Virus record (IMG/VR): IMGVR_UViG_3300027719_000039
Coordinates: 1-32,398 of that record
DNA length: 32,398 nucleotides
Direction: 5' to 3' (one strand)
DNA from: a virus
Notes under the pieces: model-generated
What the model saw: the letters and a program-made list of their open reading frames with translations, nothing else
Told to the model about the DNA's origin: nothing
The model's database searches: none
Shown here: positions 3,350-21,279 of the stretch, piece by piece
Position numbering within the stretch: position 1 is the first letter of the stretch
How the letters are laid out: each line of letters begins with the position of its first letter
Made by a program: the position numbers and the translations under genes

Positions 3350-3380
3350 CAAATATATACCTTATATATATAATATGCAA
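3350..3380 (-). promoter_or_regulatory. Bacteroidota-type promoter for the left-arm operon
   Basis: On the minus strand TTG (3380-3378) is followed by 20 bases and then TATATTTG (3357-3350), a full match to TAnnTTTG at -7. It lies just downstream of a terminator and about 60 bp before the 98-aa gene. Confidence 0.75.
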
Positions 3381-3605: not shown

Positions 3606-4031
3606 TCATTTTATTAGTTTCCAATAGTGTAACCACTCTGTAAAATTCATTCCCTCCGGATCCTGGAGATATCCGTCCCTGATCCATTTATCCCGGAGGA
3701 GAAACTCCAGGGATTTCTCGGGATCCAGGGAGAGATCCCCGTTCATCCTGGAGGGAATTATACATCCTCCGACCGTTCCTCCTGGATCCGGATCCGGATC
3801 TCCCTGGTCTCCGCTTAAAAGTAACTGATATTTCCCGATCGACTCGGAAATAACCTCTCTTAACGCCTGGCGGATCCGTTCCCTTACTTCTGACTGATCG
3901 ATCGGGAGTTTATCGAGTTTTATCCCGTTAACTATATAACCCCGATCGTCTGCCGTAAAACTGAACGCCTGGAGAAACGCCTGTAATTCGCGGATCTGTT
4001 TACTTATCCTGGTTATCTCCTCGGGTTTCAT
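3606..4031 (-). CDS. Hypothetical protein, 141 aa, with Asp-Pro linker
   Basis: The start at 4031 lies inside the end of the upstream gene (32-bp overlap) and is preceded by the A-rich AAAGAAA. The N-terminal half is helical (ISKQIRELQAFLQAF). A flexible acidic GDQGDPDPDPGG linker at about residues 75-86 follows, encoded by tandem GGATCC/GATCCG triplets. A C-terminal part rich in Trp and Asp follows. I recognise no family. It lies in the polymerase operon between the 251-aa protein and the zinc ribbon. Confidence 0.7.
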   Translation of the reverse strand: MKPEEITRISKQIRELQAFLQAFSFTADDRGYIVNGIKLDKLPIDQSEVRERIRQALREVISESIGKYQLLLSGDQGDPDPDPGGTVGGCIIPSRMNGDLSLDPEKSLEFLLRDKWIRDGYLQDPEGMNFTEWLHYWKLIK

Positions 4032-4755
4032 TTTCTTTTAGTATTTCTTTAACCGCTTTATCCAAAACAGAAAACCGGAAAACCTCAATCCGATATCCCT
4101 CCCGATGTCCCGTCCCGTTCTTAATTCTTTCCGCGAGTCCATTCATTTTATTAATCTCCCGCGCCGCGACTTTAATCCTTTGAACGTCCTCAAACGGAAC
4201 GGTTAATCCTCTCTTATGTGCCGCGAGAAATTCCCCGACGGAGTAATAACTCTCTCCCTGGGTTTTAACCCTGTCTTTTTTACCCATTCGCATATCAATA
4301 GATTTATTATTTGTAATTGACGTTTTCTCCTCCCTGGTTGCTTTATGCAATATCTCGAGAGCGCGATCCCCTTCGATATGATCTTTGATAACCTGGAGAT
4401 CCGGATCCGATAAGGATCCTCCAGGAGGGAGGCCGGAAAATCCTCTTTTCTCATATCCCTGGATATATGCTTTCCATATTTTCGCCCTGTCAAATCTTTT
4501 ACCGACGGTCGTTCCCCGGAGTTCGGGATCCTGGTTCTGACATAACGCCCGGAACCTGGTTATCGAGGCCGGGAGGCCAAAGTAACCGGAGAGGAACAGG
4601 GTTTTAAACTCTCTCATTGTCAGATCGTCGATCCCTGGATCGATGCTCCTCCAAAACTTCCAGGTCAGAAACAGATCGTCGTCCCTGGAAAATGGCTCCT
4701 TTCTCAGGATCTCCCGGATCCTCTCAAATGGTTTTGTAAAATCCTCTTTTTTCAT
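4000..4755 (-). CDS. Hypothetical protein, 251 aa, possible DNA-binding
   Basis: I place the start at 4755: the leader AACTTAAATTTATCGTT ends at this ATG, whereas the open frame back to 4824 overlaps the polymerase gene. Residues about 50-95 (GLPASITRFRALCQNQDPELRG...RFDRAKIWKAYI) resemble a segment common in phage helix-turn-helix proteins of the SxTRxRRKxQ...PELRG kind. The C-terminal half is charged and helical (VGEFLAAHKRGLTVPFEDVQRIKVAAREI). It follows the polymerase-like gene and is probably co-expressed with it. A replication accessory role is an inference. Confidence 0.6.
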   Translation of the reverse strand: MKKEDFTKPFERIREILRKEPFSRDDDLFLTWKFWRSIDPGIDDLTMREFKTLFLSGYFGLPASITRFRALCQNQDPELRGTTVGKRFDRAKIWKAYIQGYEKRGFSGLPPGGSLSDPDLQVIKDHIEGDRALEILHKATREEKTSITNNKSIDMRMGKKDRVKTQGESYYSVGEFLAAHKRGLTVPFEDVQRIKVAAREINKMNGLAERIKNGTGHREGYRIEVFRFSVLDKAVKEILKENETRGDNQDK

Positions 4756-4783: not shown

Positions 4784-6046
4784 TTAATAATAGATCGTTT
4801 TTGTCTCGATAATCGGGATCTCATGTCGGAGGATCTCCGTCATTAAGGCGCGCGCCCTGGTAACCTTTGAGGCCGGAACCAGGATCCCGTCATGGATCGA
4901 GAGGAACGGGATCTCCTCCAGGGAGAACGCCTCCCATACCTTTTTAAATAACCTGACCTCCATATTAAGCAATTTAAACGCGAGGTTTGTATGAGTCCCC
5001 TTTCCGTTACTCGGGTTCCTGGGATTGTCTGTTCTCTTAATCTCATCCAGGATCCCCCCGGCCTCCGGAAATAATCGACTGAACTCCTGGGAGAACTTCG
5101 AGTTTGTCCTGGAGTATAAAGATCTCAGAAACCGGAACTTAACCTCCCGACGGTCATTTATTCCCAGGAGATCCCCGTAACCCTGATAAATATCGTAATC
5201 TCGCGAGGTTAACTCATAAAGAAACCGAACCCAATCCGTCCGGGGGACAATATTCCACAATAAAACGGCATGGGACGATTTCATATCGATTTCGACAACG
5301 GGTTCGTTATCCAGAAAAATATAACTCCTTACCCACCTGGGGACGCCCGTCGCGATATTGTAAATCCGCCCGGAGAACTTGTCCTCCCGGACATAACTCG
5401 AACGCCTGTATTTATCAAACTGTTGATATTGTTTGATCGAATAAAATGTTAGGTTAAGATCCTTCCGGTAATTTTCCAGGGAACGAAATCTCTCCCCCTT
5501 ATAAGTTTTCGAGAGACGATATCTCTCATATTTCTCCTCGATCCCGGAGTAAAAATCCGCCTCCGAGATCCGGATCTCCGTTTTGATAAGACTCGGACGG
5601 ATCCATTTAAAAACCTCCGGAGAGATCTTTTCGTTATGGATCCCGAGATATCTCCGGACTCCGTTCCGAACCTTCAAATTTCGAACCTGGACGCCCCTCG
5701 ATATCGGAGTGTAAAATATGGGTTCAAAACTATAAACCGAGTCCCCGAAATGGTTAACCCGGTCATGCCAGGAGAGGATCCCCTCCCGGATCAGGTAATC
5801 GATCTCGATTTTATACCTGGTATGTCCGAGGATTGCTTTTAACTTATCAGATCCGAAATAAATATAACTCTCGTCGTCCTCAAACGAGACAGTCAGTTTT
5901 AAAACGTTCGAGATCCTGGAGATCTCCGTTAATAAGATATTGAGTCTTTCTCCCCGGTCTGAGGATCGCGGAACCCGGATCTCGTTAAAGACGTCATAAC
6001 GATAATTTAAATCTCCGCGCCGGGTGTTACCTTTTACGTTTCCCAT
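4784..6046 (-). CDS. Minimal family-A polymerase-like protein
   Basis: The three hallmark motifs of family-A (Pol I/T7-type) polymerases are present in order; residue numbers count from the upstream ATG at 6124. Motif A is VEIDMKSSH (D280). Motif B is RREVK-x7-YS (R325, K329, Y337), which aligns with RRSAK-x7-YG of E. coli Pol I. Motif C is SIHDGILV (H411, D412). The A-B spacing (49) is close to Pol I (53); B-C (83) is much shorter, so the fingers are reduced. I prefer ATG 6046 (420 aa), which follows TAAATTTATCAAT. No exonuclease, primase or helicase domain is visible. It is likely a nucleotide polymerase used in phage replication or transcription; template and substrate are unknown. Confidence 0.7.
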   Translation of the reverse strand: MGNVKGNTRRGDLNYRYDVFNEIRVPRSSDRGERLNILLTEISRISNVLKLTVSFEDDESYIYFGSDKLKAILGHTRYKIEIDYLIREGILSWHDRVNHFGDSVYSFEPIFYTPISRGVQVRNLKVRNGVRRYLGIHNEKISPEVFKWIRPSLIKTEIRISEADFYSGIEEKYERYRLSKTYKGERFRSLENYRKDLNLTFYSIKQYQQFDKYRRSSYVREDKFSGRIYNIATGVPRWVRSYIFLDNEPVVEIDMKSSHAVLLWNIVPRTDWVRFLYELTSRDYDIYQGYGDLLGINDRREVKFRFLRSLYSRTNSKFSQEFSRLFPEAGGILDEIKRTDNPRNPSNGKGTHTNLAFKLLNMEVRLFKKVWEAFSLEEIPFLSIHDGILVPASKVTRARALMTEILRHEIPIIETKTIYY

Positions 6047-6068
6047 ATTGATAAATTTAAAGATACGG

Positions 6069-6093
6069 GAGGGGGATTTATCGATCCCCCCTC
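6069..6093 (-). promoter_or_regulatory. 5' leader stem-loop before the polymerase-like gene
   Basis: On the transcribed strand a G-rich arm pairs with ATCCCCCTC to give a stem of about nine pairs (6069-6077 with 6084-6093, one bulged base). It lies about 22 bp upstream of ATG 6046 and is followed by TTAAATTTATCAAT. It is analogous to the hairpin-plus-box elements at 2399 and 2970. It lies within the longer open frame from 6124, which is another reason to favour the downstream start. Confidence 0.55.
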
Positions 6094-6147
6094 GCGACCC
6101 TGGGGTTCCCGTATTGAGGATCATTTTTCGGGGATCCTTGCCCGCCT

Positions 6148-6177
6148 CAAATATACATTATTTTCAATAAATGCAAA
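6148..6177 (-). promoter_or_regulatory. Bacteroidota-type promoter for the polymerase operon
   Basis: The minus strand shows TTTG (6177-6174), 18 bases, then TATATTTG (6155-6148). It lies between the late-operon terminator at 6185-6212 and the polymerase-like gene, with a leader of about 95 bases to ATG 6046. Confidence 0.8.
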
Positions 6178-6184
6178 ATATATG

Positions 6185-6212
6185 AAAAAAGAGAGGATCT
6201 CTCCTCTCTTTT
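6185..6212 (-). terminator. Intrinsic terminator ending the late operon
   Basis: A perfect hairpin GAGAGGA-TCTC-TCCTCTC (6191-6208) is flanked by six A on the left, giving a U-run in the leftward transcript, and by four T on the right. It follows the last late gene (stop at 6269) by about 60 bp and precedes the next promoter. Confidence 0.85.
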
Positions 6213-7119: not shown

Positions 7120-7953
7120 TTACTCTGTTAAATAGATAACCCAAAAATCGCGGGAGATCTCCGGATCGATAATCATACTCCAGGGGATTTTACATAACCC
7201 ATTTAATCCCCATTTTTTCCCCCAGGAGTTTAACTCGATAACATAATCTCTCTCGTAATCAAATATAACTTTACAATGCCACCCGTATAACGTCTCTTTC
7301 GCCTCGTTCGGGTGCGGGACGACTCCAGTCCTGGCGACCTCGTCGGAGAGGAAACTCTCAAATATTTTCTGACCATAAACGACCGGGAAACCCCGATAAA
7401 TTGCATCCATTATGCCCTCCTTTGACGCCGGGAATATCCTCTCGTAATGGATCGTTTGATGATCCTCCGCCTCCTTAAACGCCTCGTCCGGGGGAGTGAC
7501 ATTAAATTTCCGCTCGACATAAGGCCAGGTTTTTTCACTACATAAACCCTCCCGATTTATTGCCTTAAACGCGTCGCGGATCGATGCTCCGGTATCCTCG
7601 TTTTTCTCTCTCCTGGCGACATAATAAGCAAACAGGCGGGACGGTTCAAAATCCTCCATTTTATTAACCTGTAAAACCCGGCGGAACGCCCCGGAAACTC
7701 CATGTCCGACGCATGACCCGATTTGTCCCTGGTCATATCGGAACGGGAACCGGGAGATATTAAACATATTCGTCGACTCCGGGAGATCCTTTCGAAACCT
7801 CCGGAGACGGTTATAAACGATATCGCGGTCGTCGACGCGATCCGGGAGGAACCCGAGGCCGTAAATAAGACGCTTTTTTCTCCATTTAAGAAACTTTTTA
7901 ACGAACCTTATTAAGGAGATCAGGTTAACGCGAAACAGTCTCTCCGGTCTCAT
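7120..7953 (-). CDS. Papain-like cysteine protease (C1 fold)
   Basis: Catalytic residues are in place for a papain-type enzyme. Q75 and C81 lie in YDQGQIGSCVGHG (the oxyanion Gln is six residues before Cys, as in papain), H226 in GWHCKVI and N242 in ELNSWGKKWG. The N-terminal 30 residues are basic and amphipathic. The sequence YGLGFLPDRVDDRD that follows resembles the lead-in of phage and bacterial papain-like proteins. No clear signal peptide is seen. The ATG overlaps the amidase stop as ATGA, so it is co-translated with the endolysin. It may degrade envelope or host proteins during lysis, or act in the virion; the substrate is unknown. Confidence 0.8.
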   Translation of the reverse strand: MRPERLFRVNLISLIRFVKKFLKWRKKRLIYGLGFLPDRVDDRDIVYNRLRRFRKDLPESTNMFNISRFPFRYDQGQIGSCVGHGVSGAFRRVLQVNKMEDFEPSRLFAYYVARREKNEDTGASIRDAFKAINREGLCSEKTWPYVERKFNVTPPDEAFKEAEDHQTIHYERIFPASKEGIMDAIYRGFPVVYGQKIFESFLSDEVARTGVVPHPNEAKETLYGWHCKVIFDYERDYVIELNSWGKKWGLNGLCKIPWSMIIDPEISRDFWVIYLTE

Positions 7954-8573
7954 TCGGGCAGTTTTTCGGGGAAATTATCGGTTACCCATTCCCTCCAGTC
8001 AAAATTCGGGCATGACTTTTTATCCGTAAAAAAGTTGTGACCCGCGATTTTGAACTCGATCCCTTTCTCCTCCAGGGTCTCGACCAGGCGGGAGAGGGTC
8101 TTAAACTGAGCGGGAGTAAAATCGTTCGAGTCAATCCCGGAAAGACAGACTCCGATCGAGGATTTGTTTATCCCGAGGGTGTGCGCTCCGATCTCCTCTC
8201 TTTCGAGGATCGGATCGTCATCCAGGGGACGACCTGTTTCCAGGGTTCCGTCATGCCTGATAAAGAAATGATATCCTATCCCCTTAAATCCGCGTTCCTT
8301 ATGCCAGGCGTCGATCGTCGCGGCGTTATCATGTTTCGGGAGGTTCGAGGCTGAACAATGAATTACGAGAAACTCGATCTTTCTCCCCTCCTGGGGTTTG
8401 CCTGGGTCATGCTCCGGGAGATTGATATCCCCCTCCTGGTCGGTTGCTCCTGGATCCGGTGCGGATCCCTGGTCGGTTGCTCCTGGATCCGGTGCGGATC
8501 CCTGGTCGGTTGCTCCTGGATCCGGTGCGGATCCCTGGATAACCTCGTTCGCTTTGTCTTTCTTTTTTGTCAT
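7950..8573 (-). CDS. Endolysin: T7-lysozyme-like N-acetylmuramoyl-L-alanine amidase
   Basis: It cleaves the bond between MurNAc and L-Ala in peptidoglycan. The catalytic domain (about residues 65-200) matches the Amidase_2/T7 lysozyme pattern. Zinc ligands are H72 (VIHCSAS), H179 (IAGHNFF) and C188 (KKSCPNF). Catalytic Y101 (GYHFFIRHDG) and K186 are present, as is the GAHTLGINKSSIGVCLSG core. There is no signal peptide, so a membrane-permeabilising partner is needed. The N-terminus carries three identical 11-residue repeats (GSAPDPGATDQ, residues 14-46), an acidic flexible linker unusual for this family. The gene sits 8 bp after the coiled-coil/TM gene and overlaps the papain-like gene. Confidence 0.92.
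   Translation of the reverse strand: MTKKKDKANEVIQGSAPDPGATDQGSAPDPGATDQGSAPDPGATDQEGDINLPEHDPGKPQEGRKIEFLVIHCSASNLPKHDNAATIDAWHKERGFKGIGYHFFIRHDGTLETGRPLDDDPILEREEIGAHTLGINKSSIGVCLSGIDSNDFTPAQFKTLSRLVETLEEKGIEFKIAGHNFFTDKKSCPNFDWREWVTDNFPEKLPE
8436..8534. repeat. Three identical 33-bp tandem repeats in the endolysin gene
   Basis: Copies lie at 8436-8468, 8469-8501 and 8502-8534 and are identical base for base. Each encodes GSAPDPGATDQ in the amidase linker. Each unit carries two GGATCC sites and two CCTGG sites. Perfect identity implies recent expansion or slippage. Confidence 0.95.
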
Positions 8574-9316: not shown

Positions 9317-10561
9317 TTAATAACTTTTAATGCTCGCGTTCCAATTACAAACGAGATCTCCCGAGGTTCCGGATCTGTTAATTCTAAAGGTTGACGATCC
9401 GATGTTTGAAATCCAAATCATTTCGTTACCCTGGGGAGTTGCGATAACATTATCCGGGATTGCGATTATCGAATGAGTAATATCAATATATGAACCCCCG
9501 TTCGGGATCGTTCCGTTCCCGTTATTCTCCTGGAACAACCCGTTAAAATGATTATTATTAAATCGAACCTGTTGTTTATTATATAATGAAAACGGAGAGA
9601 CTGAGCCGCCTCCGAACTGGTTATCGTAAACGCTCACATTTGAAACGTTCCCGGTTCTCAAATTATAATTATGACCCGTTGCGGGGAATATGTTTCCCCC
9701 GATATTCATATTATTTACTGATCCGAGATAAAGATTATACGATCCGGTTTGTCCTCCGCTTGTTGCGCTAAACTTGTTATTTACAATATGACCGCTTATC
9801 GCTCCCGAGATAAACATATCTCCCGCCCGACTATCCTGTAAAAACCAGGAATTCGCCAGGATAAAACGATCCGCCGTTTGCTGAACGTGTAATCCGTGAG
9901 AGTCCTGATCGGGGAGGCCAAATCCAAAATAACAGGAGTTAATGTTCAGATTATAGTCGTGAACTATTCTTAACGCTGCGGTTTTCCCATATTCAAACGC
10001 ACATCCATAAAAATAACTATTCCTCGCGGGAGTTCCTCCCTCCTCGACCCTCATGTCAAAATTTGGCGCGGTCGCGTGAACGACAAATAAATCGATAAAA
10101 TGAGAGTGCCGTAAATAGTTATAACAGACTATATTCGAAAATCCCTCCGCCTGGGGAAAGGCCATTTGTATCCGAATTCCTGACATCGTAACACTAATCG
10201 GATCCGACGAAAACCTCCGTCCAATTTCGAACATATTACAATCTGATCCCGCCGCTAATGTTATTGAGGTTCCTGAGTCTGACCCCGCCCCGTACATTGC
10301 AAATGAGGTCTGTATAATTATCGTCCCGGAGATTACATACTCCCTCCCCGCCAGGATAATAATCCCTCCTCCATGACTAAACGAGACCGTCTCCGATAAA
10401 TCATTAACGCATCTCTGAAATGCCAGGGTGTCGTCAGGATCTCCGGTTTGCTTATAATGGTCAACCGAAAAAATAAATTGACTTCCAATCGCCGCGATTA
10501 AACTGGTCATTTTGGAGATCATAATCTCCCCGGTGTCCCCGATATTAAAGTTTTGTATCAT
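9317..10561 (-). CDS. Tail spike with parallel beta-helix (pectate-lyase-like) fold
   Basis: Residues about 35-120 (DDTLAFQRCVND...GGGIIILAGREYVISGTIII) match the start of a right-handed beta-helix of the pectate-lyase superfamily. A long run of Asn/Gly/Phe-rich coils follows to about residue 350 (HIVNNKFSATSG, NMNIGGNIFPA, VSVYDNQFGGG). A small C-terminal beta domain ends the protein. Such spikes bind, and often cleave, surface polysaccharide. Its ATG overlaps the stop of the preceding lectin-like protein as TAATG, so the two are probably made in fixed proportion. Catalytic residues cannot be assigned by eye. Confidence 0.75.
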   Translation of the reverse strand: MIQNFNIGDTGEIMISKMTSLIAAIGSQFIFSVDHYKQTGDPDDTLAFQRCVNDLSETVSFSHGGGIIILAGREYVISGTIIIQTSFAMYGAGSDSGTSITLAAGSDCNMFEIGRRFSSDPISVTMSGIRIQMAFPQAEGFSNIVCYNYLRHSHFIDLFVVHATAPNFDMRVEEGGTPARNSYFYGCAFEYGKTAALRIVHDYNLNINSCYFGFGLPDQDSHGLHVQQTADRFILANSWFLQDSRAGDMFISGAISGHIVNNKFSATSGGQTGSYNLYLGSVNNMNIGGNIFPATGHNYNLRTGNVSNVSVYDNQFGGGSVSPFSLYNKQQVRFNNNHFNGLFQENNGNGTIPNGGSYIDITHSIIAIPDNVIATPQGNEMIWISNIGSSTFRINRSGTSGDLVCNWNASIKSY

Positions 10562-11329
10562 TATTGAATTCCTTTACTGTTTGCGTCCATATATGCCTCG
10601 ATCGCGTTATTTATTACAATACTCTCCGCATCCGAGGGAGCCTTCGAAAATAGATAACAGGAGATTTGATTATCTGTTCCATACCTAAAGACGTCCGCGT
10701 TATTATCCCCGAGTATGTAATAATTATATCCCGTCAGAGCCGCCGCGTTATTTGCTAATGACGAGAACGCCGCGCCATTTTTCGAGATACCTATAACGTT
10801 CGCGATACGTCTTACCAGGTAAAAACCCCTCGTCGCCGAATTCGCCGACAGGAGGTTCCCGACCGCAAATCCATTATTTGAACCCCGAACGACATCCCCG
10901 GTATATCTTACCATGATCCGACTGTAATCTCCATTCCCCGCGATCGTTTTCGTCGATCCGATCGCGACGTCGTCCCGAACATAAAACCCGACCGCGTTGT
11001 TTTGCTCGGTAAACCTGACTCCCTGGGTTAAGGGGTTAAAAGAGGAGTTAATGTATCCCAGGGACGTCGCGGCCTTAAACCCCTCCAGGGCGACAAATGA
11101 CGGAACCGTCCCTCCCAGGACTCCATGATGCGAGTTTTTAACCAGGTTCTTTAATGAACTCTCCGAGGTTTCTCCGGCGGACAATGCGAAAACGTCGAAA
11201 TAATCGGAGAGGTTTGTAATACTTAACCCGCTCTTTAGATCCAAAACGAGAGTATTGATCCGGGTTAATTGCGCCTCCGATAACGGCGTCGCCAGGCCGC
11301 TAATATATGTTAAAACTTCGGGTTCGTAA
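10561..11329. repeat. 769-bp direct repeat, copy A (with 19801-20569)
   Basis: The repeat starts exactly at the stop codon and extends 769 bases into the gene. Both copies are the same length with no indel; I count 29 mismatches (about 96% identity). Fifteen of these fall between 10911 and 10979. Identity ends abruptly at both borders. Confidence 0.95.
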
Positions 11330-12117
11330 ACGGCCTCCGGAGTCCATAAATTTTGTCCGGTTCTGTTTGATTTAAGACGACCATATTCGTTATAATCATT
11401 ATCCCAAAGAAACGGGAGTAATAAATCCGTAAATAATCGATCTCTCTCCAGGGGATCGACCGATATATCCCGGATCATTATTGCGCGGATCGAGTTCGGA
11501 GAGTCATCATCATATCGGACGGGGGTTCTCTGTAAATCATATCCGATTAATTCCGCCGTTGTTACAACCCTTCGAGTCTGATCCGTTTTAAACCAAATAA
11601 AATCAGTATCCGCCGCGATATATTGCGGAGTGTTCGGACATTGAAACGTCTCCTCCCCGGATAATCCGGAAACGGTTAAATAATCCGAGGATCCGAGAAC
11701 CCTGTTCGGGATCTGACCGCCGGACAAATCAGACATTAATCCTAAAAATAAAACCCCTGGCTGATTACTCCAGTATTCGAGCCATCCCCCGACCTGGTTA
11801 TCAATATTTACCGTATCTCCAGTCCTGAGAAAGGTTAAAACTAACTCGTCGCCCCATACGATAGTCCTCGAGGACGTTAAGGTTAAAACTGATCCCGTCC
11901 AGGAGGCGGACTCAATCGGATAACCAGTTATTGAAAAATCCGCCGCGATTAAAGACGCCGGATTTGGGAACGTCAATATTATATGAGTCGGATTATCGTC
12001 CGGAACGACTGCCGAAATAAGAGTCATCCAATATAATTCCATTATTTCGGTCGAACTGTTAATCTCCGAGATCTGTCCCGTTATATTAATCGGTTGAATT
12101 GTTCCTGTTACGCTCAT
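10561..12117 (-). CDS. Tail-tip protein with Ig-like N-terminus and duplicated C-terminal jelly-roll-like domain
   Basis: The 518-aa product has an N-terminal segment (about residues 36-105, VVPDDNPTHIILTFPNPASL...WGDELVLTF) resembling SwmB/Ig-like modules. A middle part to residue 263 follows, then a 255-residue C-terminal domain (264-518). That last domain has the features of a concanavalin/LamG-type jelly roll common in Bacteroidota phage tails (SRIMVRYTG, NYYILGDNNADVFRYG, a closing helix with AIEAYMDA). It is 96% identical at both DNA and protein level to residues 238-492 of the chimeric tail protein at 19801-21279. The gene lies between the S74 fibre and the beta-helix spike, suggesting receptor or glycan binding. 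Confidence 0.75.
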   Translation of the reverse strand: MSVTGTIQPINITGQISEINSSTEIMELYWMTLISAVVPDDNPTHIILTFPNPASLIAADFSITGYPIESASWTGSVLTLTSSRTIVWGDELVLTFLRTGDTVNIDNQVGGWLEYWSNQPGVLFLGLMSDLSGGQIPNRVLGSSDYLTVSGLSGEETFQCPNTPQYIAADTDFIWFKTDQTRRVVTTAELIGYDLQRTPVRYDDDSPNSIRAIMIRDISVDPLERDRLFTDLLLPFLWDNDYNEYGRLKSNRTGQNLWTPEAVYEPEVLTYISGLATPLSEAQLTRINTLVLDLKSGLSITNLSDYFDVFALSAGETSESSLKNLVKNSHHGVLGGTVPSFVALEGFKAATSLGYINSSFNPLTQGVRFTEQNNAVGFYVRDDVAIGSTKTIAGNGDYSRIMVRYTGDVVRGSNNGFAVGNLLSANSATRGFYLVRRIANVIGISKNGAAFSSLANNAAALTGYNYYILGDNNADVFRYGTDNQISCYLFSKAPSDAESIVINNAIEAYMDANSKGIQ

Positions 12118-19800: not shown

Positions 19801-20569
19801 TTATTGAATTCCTTTACTGTTTGCGTCCATATATGCCTCGATCGCGTTATTTATTACAATACTCTCCGCATCCGAGGGAGCCTTCGAAAATAGATAACAG
19901 GAGACCTGATTATCCGTCCCATACCTAAAGACGTCCGCGTTATTATCCCCGAGTATGTAATAATTATATCCCGTCAGAGCCGCCGCGTTATTTGCTAATG
20001 ACGAGAACGCCGCGCCATTTTTCGAGATACCCATAACGTTCGCGATACGTCTTACCAGGTAAAAACCCCTCGTCGCCGAATTCGCCGACAGGAGGTTCCC
20101 GACCGAAAATCCATTATTTGAACCCCGAACGACATCCCCGGTATATCTTAACATGACGCGACTATTTGTTCCATTCCCCGCGATCGTCTTTGTCGATCCG
20201 ACGACAACGTCGTCCCGGACATAAAACCCGACCGCGTTATTTTGCTCCGTAAACCTGACTCCCTGGGTTAAGGGATTAAAAGAGGAGTTAATATATCCCA
20301 GGGACGTCGCGGCCTTAAACCCCTCCAGGGCGACAAATGACGGAGCCGTCCCCCCCAGGACTCCATGATGCGAGTTTTTAACCAGGTTCTTTAATGAACT
20401 CTCCGAGGTTTCTCCGGCGGACAATGCGAAAACGTCGAAATAATCGGAGAGGTTTGTAATACTTAACCCGCTCTTTAGATCCAAAACGAGAGTATTAATC
20501 CGGGTTAATTGCGCCTCCGATAACGGCGTCGCCAGGCCGCTAATATATGTTAAAACTTCAGGTTCGTAA
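19801..20569. repeat. 769-bp direct repeat, copy B (with 10561-11329)
   Basis: This is the second copy of the C-terminal-domain repeat. It starts at the stop codon and ends at the codon for the shared YEPEVL motif, same orientation, no indels, 29 mismatches to copy A. At protein level I count 10 differences in 255 residues, including AI to VV, DY to TN and IMV to VML in one neighbourhood. Confidence 0.95.
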
Positions 20570-21279
20570 TTTGTTCCCTCACTCGGAGTTATTCCCCTCC
20601 CAAAAAGAGAGGACGCATCGAACGCCCCGGAGAACCTGGAGACGTTTCCGACCTGGAACGCGGCGGAGAGTGCGGTTATAAATCCCTCTCCGAAAAAATA
20701 TGTCGTCGACCCGGCGGACGACTTTAATGTCGCCTTAACCGGGAGGTCGTTTTCTTTGATCTCGGTAATAAGATGAGCGAACCCGCCCTCGATCCTTTCC
20801 CACCAGGTCGGGGACGTGAGGGGTTCGTGGTTAAGGTTCCCCGCCTGGAGTGACTTGTAAACTCGTTTTTCGTTTGAGACGGTTGTCCGATATAACAATT
20901 CCCCGGCGGGATATGTAGCCGCCGCGCTCCATTCTGAGACCTGGATCCAATGGACGCCCCCGTCGGTTGTCGGGTTATGTCCCAGGGTCGTCGATTGTGC
21001 CTCATAACAGGAACCCGCAATTATTACAAAACTCCCCGCGCTATAACTCGTCTCGGGATCCCATATATACGGGATCGAGTTATCTCCCCTGGTTATCATT
21101 CCGTTAAACGCGACCTTCCACTCCTTAACGTCGACGAGTTTGTTTTTCCATTCATCTCCGAGTTTTGTAACGTCGACGATCTGTTTGTTTATTTCCAGGG
21201 TGAAATCCGTACAATATGCGATAACCATTCCGCCGTAAATGAGAGCGAACTCCTTAGATAAAATCGGATCGATTGCCAT
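19801..21279 (-). CDS. Chimeric second major tail protein with CBM-like insert and jelly-roll-like C-terminus
   Basis: Residues 1-66 align with the plain major tail protein (MAI-PILSK, IGG/YGG, CTDF-LEINK, KLVD-KEWKV-FN). Residues about 165-230 resume that fold (GFITALSAAFQVG). Between them an insert of about 95 residues (70-165) carries two modules with the WsxxxxYpaGxxVxyxgxxYxAxxxxxxxxPxxxxxxW pattern of small carbohydrate-binding modules (CBM5/12-like). Residues 238-492 are the same domain as the C-terminus of the protein at 10561-12117. Thus tail-tube subunits could display two adhesin-like modules. A terminator-like hairpin (21300-21335) lies upstream and may limit its amount. Confidence 0.8.
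   Translation of the reverse strand: MAIDPILSKEFALIYGGMVIAYCTDFTLEINKQIVDVTKLGDEWKNKLVDVKEWKVAFNGMITRGDNSIPYIWDPETSYSAGSFVIIAGSCYEAQSTTLGHNPTTDGGVHWIQVSEWSAAATYPAGELLYRTTVSNEKRVYKSLQAGNLNHEPLTSPTWWERIEGGFAHLITEIKENDLPVKATLKSSAGSTTYFFGEGFITALSAAFQVGNVSRFSGAFDASSLFGRGITPSEGTNYEPEVLTYISGLATPLSEAQLTRINTLVLDLKSGLSITNLSDYFDVFALSAGETSESSLKNLVKNSHHGVLGGTAPSFVALEGFKAATSLGYINSSFNPLTQGVRFTEQNNAVGFYVRDDVVVGSTKTIAGNGTNSRVMLRYTGDVVRGSNNGFSVGNLLSANSATRGFYLVRRIANVMGISKNGAAFSSLANNAAALTGYNYYILGDNNADVFRYGTDNQVSCYLFSKAPSDAESIVINNAIEAYMDANSKGIQ

Follow-up and report, generated by a model that had tools for sequence, protein, structure and literature searches.

The minus strand of the window, by which we mean the whole 32,398-base stretch of DNA analysed here, carries a gene for a compact protein whose core is almost certainly that of a family-A polymerase and which can be assigned with good confidence to the TV-Pol type. 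While the preliminary description of this DNA had raised the possibility of an undescribed replicase, the protein is not of an undescribed kind and belongs to the minimal PolA group reported as TV-Pol in 2008 and as divPolA2 in 2024 (PMC2579912, PMC11348598), in which a short interval between motifs B and C is general. As to its function, we lean slightly towards a divergent TV-Pol-type member that would act as an origin- or template-binding primase-polymerase in phage replication; for priming taken by itself, the chances appear about even.

The gene and its surroundings

The polymerase ORF spans positions 4784-6124 of the minus strand (446 codons), and the plus strand of 4784-6046 contains many stop codons. 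The ATG at 6046 is a probable start, better than that of the full ORF at 6124, because TTTAAATTTATCAAT-ATG is read there and a promoter and a terminator lie farther upstream (Table 1). The interval first proposed for the gene therefore stands, running as it does to this ATG, but it is read from the minus strand and the residue numbers given with it follow the 446-aa ORF. We keep those numbers here, while the coordinates to the ATG describe 420 aa; in the numbering of the latter, the key residues D280, R325, K329, H411 and D412 are D254, R299, K303, H385 and D386.

Bacteroidota promoters have the form TTG-N18-TATATTTG, a pattern expected 0.48 times per strand and seen four times on the minus strand of the window. 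A Shine-Dalgarno-like word was found at only 2 of 33 gene starts, and the leaders are A-rich. Taken together with the promoter and the terminator, these features suggest that the host is Bacteroidota-like and that the polymerase gene opens its own operon, and the inverted repeat in its leader could possibly regulate translation.

Table 1. Coordinates of the features in and around the polymerase gene (residues numbered as in the 446-aa ORF)
Feature	Position	Strand	Remarks
CDS, probable TV-Pol-type family-A polymerase	4784..6046	-	420 aa from probable start; ORF open to 6124, 446 aa
Motif C hairpin, SIHDGI, H411-D412	4874..4903	-	D412 89/89, H411 85/89; strands 408-410 and 413-417 in model
Long helix 379-402, invariant E389, family LQxxES, at Pol I Q-helix position	4919..4990	-	Conservation and model
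Motif B / O helix, R325-x3-K329-x7-Y337	5114..5152	-	K329 89/89; helix 325-337 in model
Motif A, VVEIDMKSSHA, catalytic D280, H285 at Pol I E710 position	5267..5305	-	Sequence and model
Hairpin region, GRxxxxxT...R, invariant R253 and conserved R266	5327..5389	-	R253 89/89, R266 80/89
Predicted two-helix thumb, helices 188-204 and 216-235	5420..5563	-	AF2 model, moderate confidence
Predicted N-terminal winged-helix domain, residues 56-133	5726..5959	-	AF2 order H-E-H-H-E-E
Inverted repeat GAGGGGG...CCCCCTC, 5' leader just upstream of start codon	6066..6094	-	z -1.4, weak
Bacteroidota-type promoter match, TTG-N18-TATATTTG	6148..6176	-	About 100 nt before start codon
Intrinsic terminator, closes upstream late operon	6185..6209	-	-17.5 kcal/mol with flank, z -3.5
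Downstream gene, about 251 aa from MKKEDF, probable operon partner	4000..4755	-	No family match

The window was earlier said to have no visible helicase, primase or SSB, with which the family searches agree: neither these nor an integrase or a replicative polymerase were seen, and no ORF carried a credible Walker A motif, in an IMG/VR record that is labelled linear, has no end repeats, is possibly a fragment and may lack genes. Some other features of the window deserve mention. A second Bacteroidota-type promoter match, resembling TTG-N20-TATATTTG, lies at 3350-3380 (minus strand) just before ORF 3289-2993. The tail-region proteins encoded at 10561-12117 and 19801-21279 (minus strand) end in near-identical C-terminal stretches (EPEVLTYISGLATPLSEAQLTRINTLVLDLKSGLS...) that look like copies of one module, and the amidase-like protein of 7950-8573 (minus strand) has three copies of the short repeat GSAPDPGATDQ in its N-terminal part.

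Catalytic motifs and predicted fold

The three motifs that had drawn attention to this gene, A (D280), B (R325-x3-K329-x7-Y337-S) and C (H411-D412), are all present in the minus-strand ORF and in that order. Their spacing was also described correctly: the interval between D280 of motif A and K329 of motif B is 49 residues, similar to the 53 of Pol I, and that from K329 to D412 of motif C is 83 residues as compared with 124 in E. coli Pol I, a difference of about 40. In the minimal PolA group (TV-Pol / divPolA2), the B-C interval has a median of 79-100 residues. Conservation was counted in 89 non-redundant proteins, among which R253, Y313, K329, E389 and D412 are invariant and H411 occurs in 85, so that the homologues, which had been proposed as a check on D280, K329 and H411-D412, retain these residues. 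The model puts D280 at a strand end and D412 in a hairpin, and both are found throughout the 89 relatives as well as in the PHROG_4756 and divPolA2 groups. For D280 and the adjacent NSQP motif, which belonged to the search pattern, invariance is not independent evidence. Residue 325 is Arg in 63 relatives and Lys in 26. R253, K329 and D412 are common to the window family, the alphaproteobacterial/PHROG_4756 group and divPolA2, and both R253 and R266 are present in every divPolA2 and PHROG_4756-group row. At S283, H285, A286, Y310, L386 and G413, the window protein has residues other than those of its sister clade.

An AF2 model built with 84 sequences reached a pLDDT of 76 and a pTM of 0.76, and the catalytic core for the most part scored close to 90 or higher. 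The fold search that had been suggested as a check returned a right-hand DNA polymerase core: the best PDB matches to the predicted model were Klentaq, apPOL, Pol theta and T7 DNA polymerase (prob 1.0, E 6e-5 to 1e-3), with TM-scores of 0.3-0.44 over the whole chain. In BFVD, the best matches were two 400-aa proteins, one of them named putative DNA polymerase I, followed by an Aeromonas phage protein, a Rheinheimera phage "DNA polymerase" and a Zamilon virophage "DNA replication protein".

These searches bear on the earlier suggestion of a relative of the single-subunit RNA polymerases, which would transcribe phage genes or make RNA primers. The palm and the RxxxK and HD motifs are common to T7-like RNA polymerases, the winged helix could recognise promoters, BFVD gave weak matches to phage RNA polymerases (E about 0.02), and the authors of divPolA2 left this option open for their own family (PMC11348598). 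However, the 50 best PDB fold matches included DNA polymerases and neither T7 RNA polymerase nor any other RNA polymerase, and the promoters observed in the window are of the host type. Moreover, T7 RNA polymerase has Gly (G542) at the ribose-gate position equivalent to Pol I E710. This position, where Pol I excludes ribose, is bulky throughout the group, being His in the window, Gln in the sister clade and Glu, His or Trp in divPolA2. We therefore regard an RNA polymerase as very unlikely; on account of the residue at the E710 position, H285 probably selects dNTPs.

The preliminary description had recognised neither an exonuclease nor a thumb in the roughly 250 residues before motif A. The first half of this holds, and with it the view of a compact, stand-alone enzyme, since family search and models disclosed no fused nuclease in the polymerase. 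The second half is answered in part, as the model predicts a winged helix and, after it and with moderate confidence, two long helices that precede the R253 hairpin, an arrangement like that of the TV-Pol thumb. When the N-terminal 137 residues were folded alone with AF2, the winged-helix order appeared again, and the best fold matches of this domain were 5kbj, 4pql and 4pt7 (listed as a Rep-DNA complex, the N-terminal domain of a DNA binding protein and an initiator). These RepA-type matches are weak (prob 0.93 to 0.77, E about 0.04 to 0.09) and intermixed with MarR/PadR-like winged helices and, because none reaches an E of 0.001, we claim the fold class and treat the likeness to initiators as a lead only.

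Relatives and their neighbourhoods

The polymerase ORF had no match in Pfam, NCBIfam or the PDB sequences, PF00476 included, and a weak one (2e-5) to PHROG_4756, a family of unknown function. Single-sequence searches with the window protein found no relative in viral contigs, genome contigs or plasmids, and tblastn against phages gave a single weak match (E 5e-3) in a 642-kb phage. Searching onward from the protein of this phage gave four further distinct homologues, all from huge phages, one of these phages being of 735 kb (two accessions), and one huge-phage homologue led to a relative on a 35-kb Hymenobacter plasmid. Profile-guided scans yielded 49 genome loci (Bacteroidota, Ignavibacteria, Planctomycetota, Opitutae and others) and, in IMG/VR, 136 stretches of which 80 were kept; an additional profile scan returned large-phage relatives or ones already known and nothing else, and the exact pattern of the window's own motif A had no match in IMG/VR. 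A leave-one-out profile of 88 relatives, from which the window was excluded, recovered the polymerase ORF as its sole match among the window ORFs (E 1.7e-27), so the motif pattern is more than chance. Two variants were noted among the relatives: one (L190, 460-2517) has a C-terminal extension that by eye resembles a GIY-YIG homing nuclease with repeats, and a 555-aa Bacteroidota protein (L189, 1135-2799, minus strand) has YDA and not HDS as motif C.

Profile-profile comparison linked the family to the PHROG_4756/alphaproteobacterial group (prob 98.3, E 2e-14) and to divPolA2 (prob 97.6, E 4e-12), and these two groups to each other (prob 100), the reversed decoys giving no more than 0.5. Profile similarity to Pol I was not significant (prob 6), and the link to that enzyme consists of the motifs and the predicted fold. 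In the core tree, the window protein branches deeply and on its own, next to the NSQP clade (support 0.946) and away from divPolA2; this sister clade is large and blank in Pfam and NCBIfam. The window protein has the H-A and HDG letters in common with MAP_030 of Ma-LMM01, which from its motifs and neighbouring transposase we take to be the TV-Pol named in 2008. Since the family profile gives no match to MAP_030, formal TV-Pol membership is probable and not proven.

The neighbourhoods of the relatives are, by gene content, those of mobile elements: tyrosine integrases lie nearby in 26 of the 49 genome loci, Sak4-like ATPases and DUF3871 genes in 12 each and HTH_17 genes in eight. The terminase-related phages (G001-G020), several of whose records are fragments, have almost only the structural module in common with the window. 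As they carry no match to the polymerase, it is not part of the core of this phage group, and its gene looks like an exchangeable module. In the large phages, the relatives have two conserved flanking genes (noted at L100, 8998-9534, and L113, 6025-7353), an upstream one of about 443 aa and a downstream one of about 179 aa, with no Pfam or PHROG match.

The Sak4-like annealing ATPase adjoining some genome relatives represents a recombination context, which would suit a primer-dependent DNA polymerase of the same fold engaged in gap filling or repair with no role in the start of replication. Such a role has also been suggested for divPolA2 (PMC11348598), and CcPol alone only extends primers (PMC7581432). 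We nevertheless consider it unlikely, if deserving of some weight, because the gene heads its own operon and is not placed among repair genes, the predicted winged helix is initiator-like, and no replicative polymerase was seen in the window, possibly incomplete as this is.

Less probable still is a primase of the PolA-SSB type that would depend, like CcPol on MP, on a small partner protein, encoded here by 4000-4755 or 3606-4031. Both genes are close to and co-directional with that of the polymerase, but their products have no family or homology match. Near some Bacteroidota relatives (5 loci, among them L081, 9146-9484, and L071, 9739-10086) there is a small protein of about 115 aa (MVTVTNFVKR...), without family match, which is a possible candidate for an OB-fold SSB partner and would fit such an arrangement.

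Proposed role and known systems

According to the scheme that we favour, that of a primase-polymerase, the N-terminal winged helix would bind phage DNA, the thumb helices together with R253 and R266 would hold the template and the growing strand, R325 and K329 of the O helix would bind the incoming nucleotide triphosphate, and D280 and D412 would hold the two metal ions for nucleotidyl transfer. The product would be a short DNA stretch or primer, to be extended by the host replicase. Our analysis covers the sequence, its conservation, the predicted fold, the relatives and the operon signals, and from these we infer every biochemical step of this scheme, priming in particular, and likewise origin binding and the partner proteins. 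A primer-independent enzyme, as had been envisaged at the outset, is plausible because CcPol-MP, filed as a TV-Pol and of the class of the PolA-SSB primases, makes DNA primers de novo with a preference for dNTPs, both Asp being essential (PMC7581432, PMC10061031). A more tentative and less likely reading is a one-piece initiator-primase, whose RepA-like winged helix and TV-Pol core, joined in a single protein, would combine origin recognition and the start of DNA synthesis without a separate primase. Against a primase-polymerase counts that neither an SSB partner nor a D5 helicase, both usual with known TV-Pols, was found in the window. Relatives need not be initiators, because the Hymenobacter plasmid that bears one has its own Rep gene; this annotated replication initiation gene also weakens the idea that the relative is the Rep of that plasmid.

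If it existed, such a one-piece initiator-primase would serve small phages of Bacteroidota, mobile elements and also the largest phages known. The clade has no Pfam or NCBIfam family despite its presence in several phyla and in phages of up to 735 kb. By 2020, CcPol was the sole TV-Pol with a biochemical characterisation (PMC7581432). A protein this compact, whose N-terminal head is predicted to bind DNA, offers a tractable case for whether, and how, family-A polymerases self-prime, and would also suggest a function for many genes now labelled hypothetical.

The defining features of TV-Pols are a thumb of two helices, an arginine in a hairpin, two aspartates in the palm and RxxxK in the fingers, and the mobile elements that carry them also encode D5 helicases, resolvases or integrases (Iyer, Abhiman, Aravind 2008, PMC2579912). 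The window protein resembles them in the hairpin Arg, the two catalytic Asp, the RxxxK fingers, the probable two-helix thumb and the lack of a nuclease, and its relatives lie on integrase-bearing mobile elements in Bacteroidota and Planctomycetota, phyla covered in that work. In contrast, the window has no visible D5 helicase or recombinase, the lineage carries SSHA and HDG motifs, and the N-terminus is predicted as a winged helix whereas some members have an all-helical N-domain (PMC2579912). The divPolA2 proteins consist of a palm plus an unknown N-terminal domain, and the barbaviruses that have them encode another DNA polymerase too (PMC11348598). With them and PHROG_4756, the window protein has in common the order of the core, most invariant residues, a length of about 430 aa, an N-terminal globular domain and tailed phages as carriers, but it falls in a separate tree clade from divPolA2 and ends motif B with Tyr, where divPolA2 has mostly Asn. 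It is like CcPol-MP in its family-A core, its mobile element and the lack of an exonuclease, and differs in that no SSB partner or helicase was identified in the window and in that CcPol is near enough to Pol I for a PolA annotation. With Pol I and T7 DNA polymerase (PF00476) it has the predicted palm, fingers and motif order in common, whereas exonuclease domains, about 40 B-C residues and a PF00476 match are lacking. Finally, the predicted N-terminal winged helix finds its best, albeit weak, fold match in RepA-type initiators (5kbj, 4pql, 4pt7), plasmid proteins that to our knowledge have no polymerase core.
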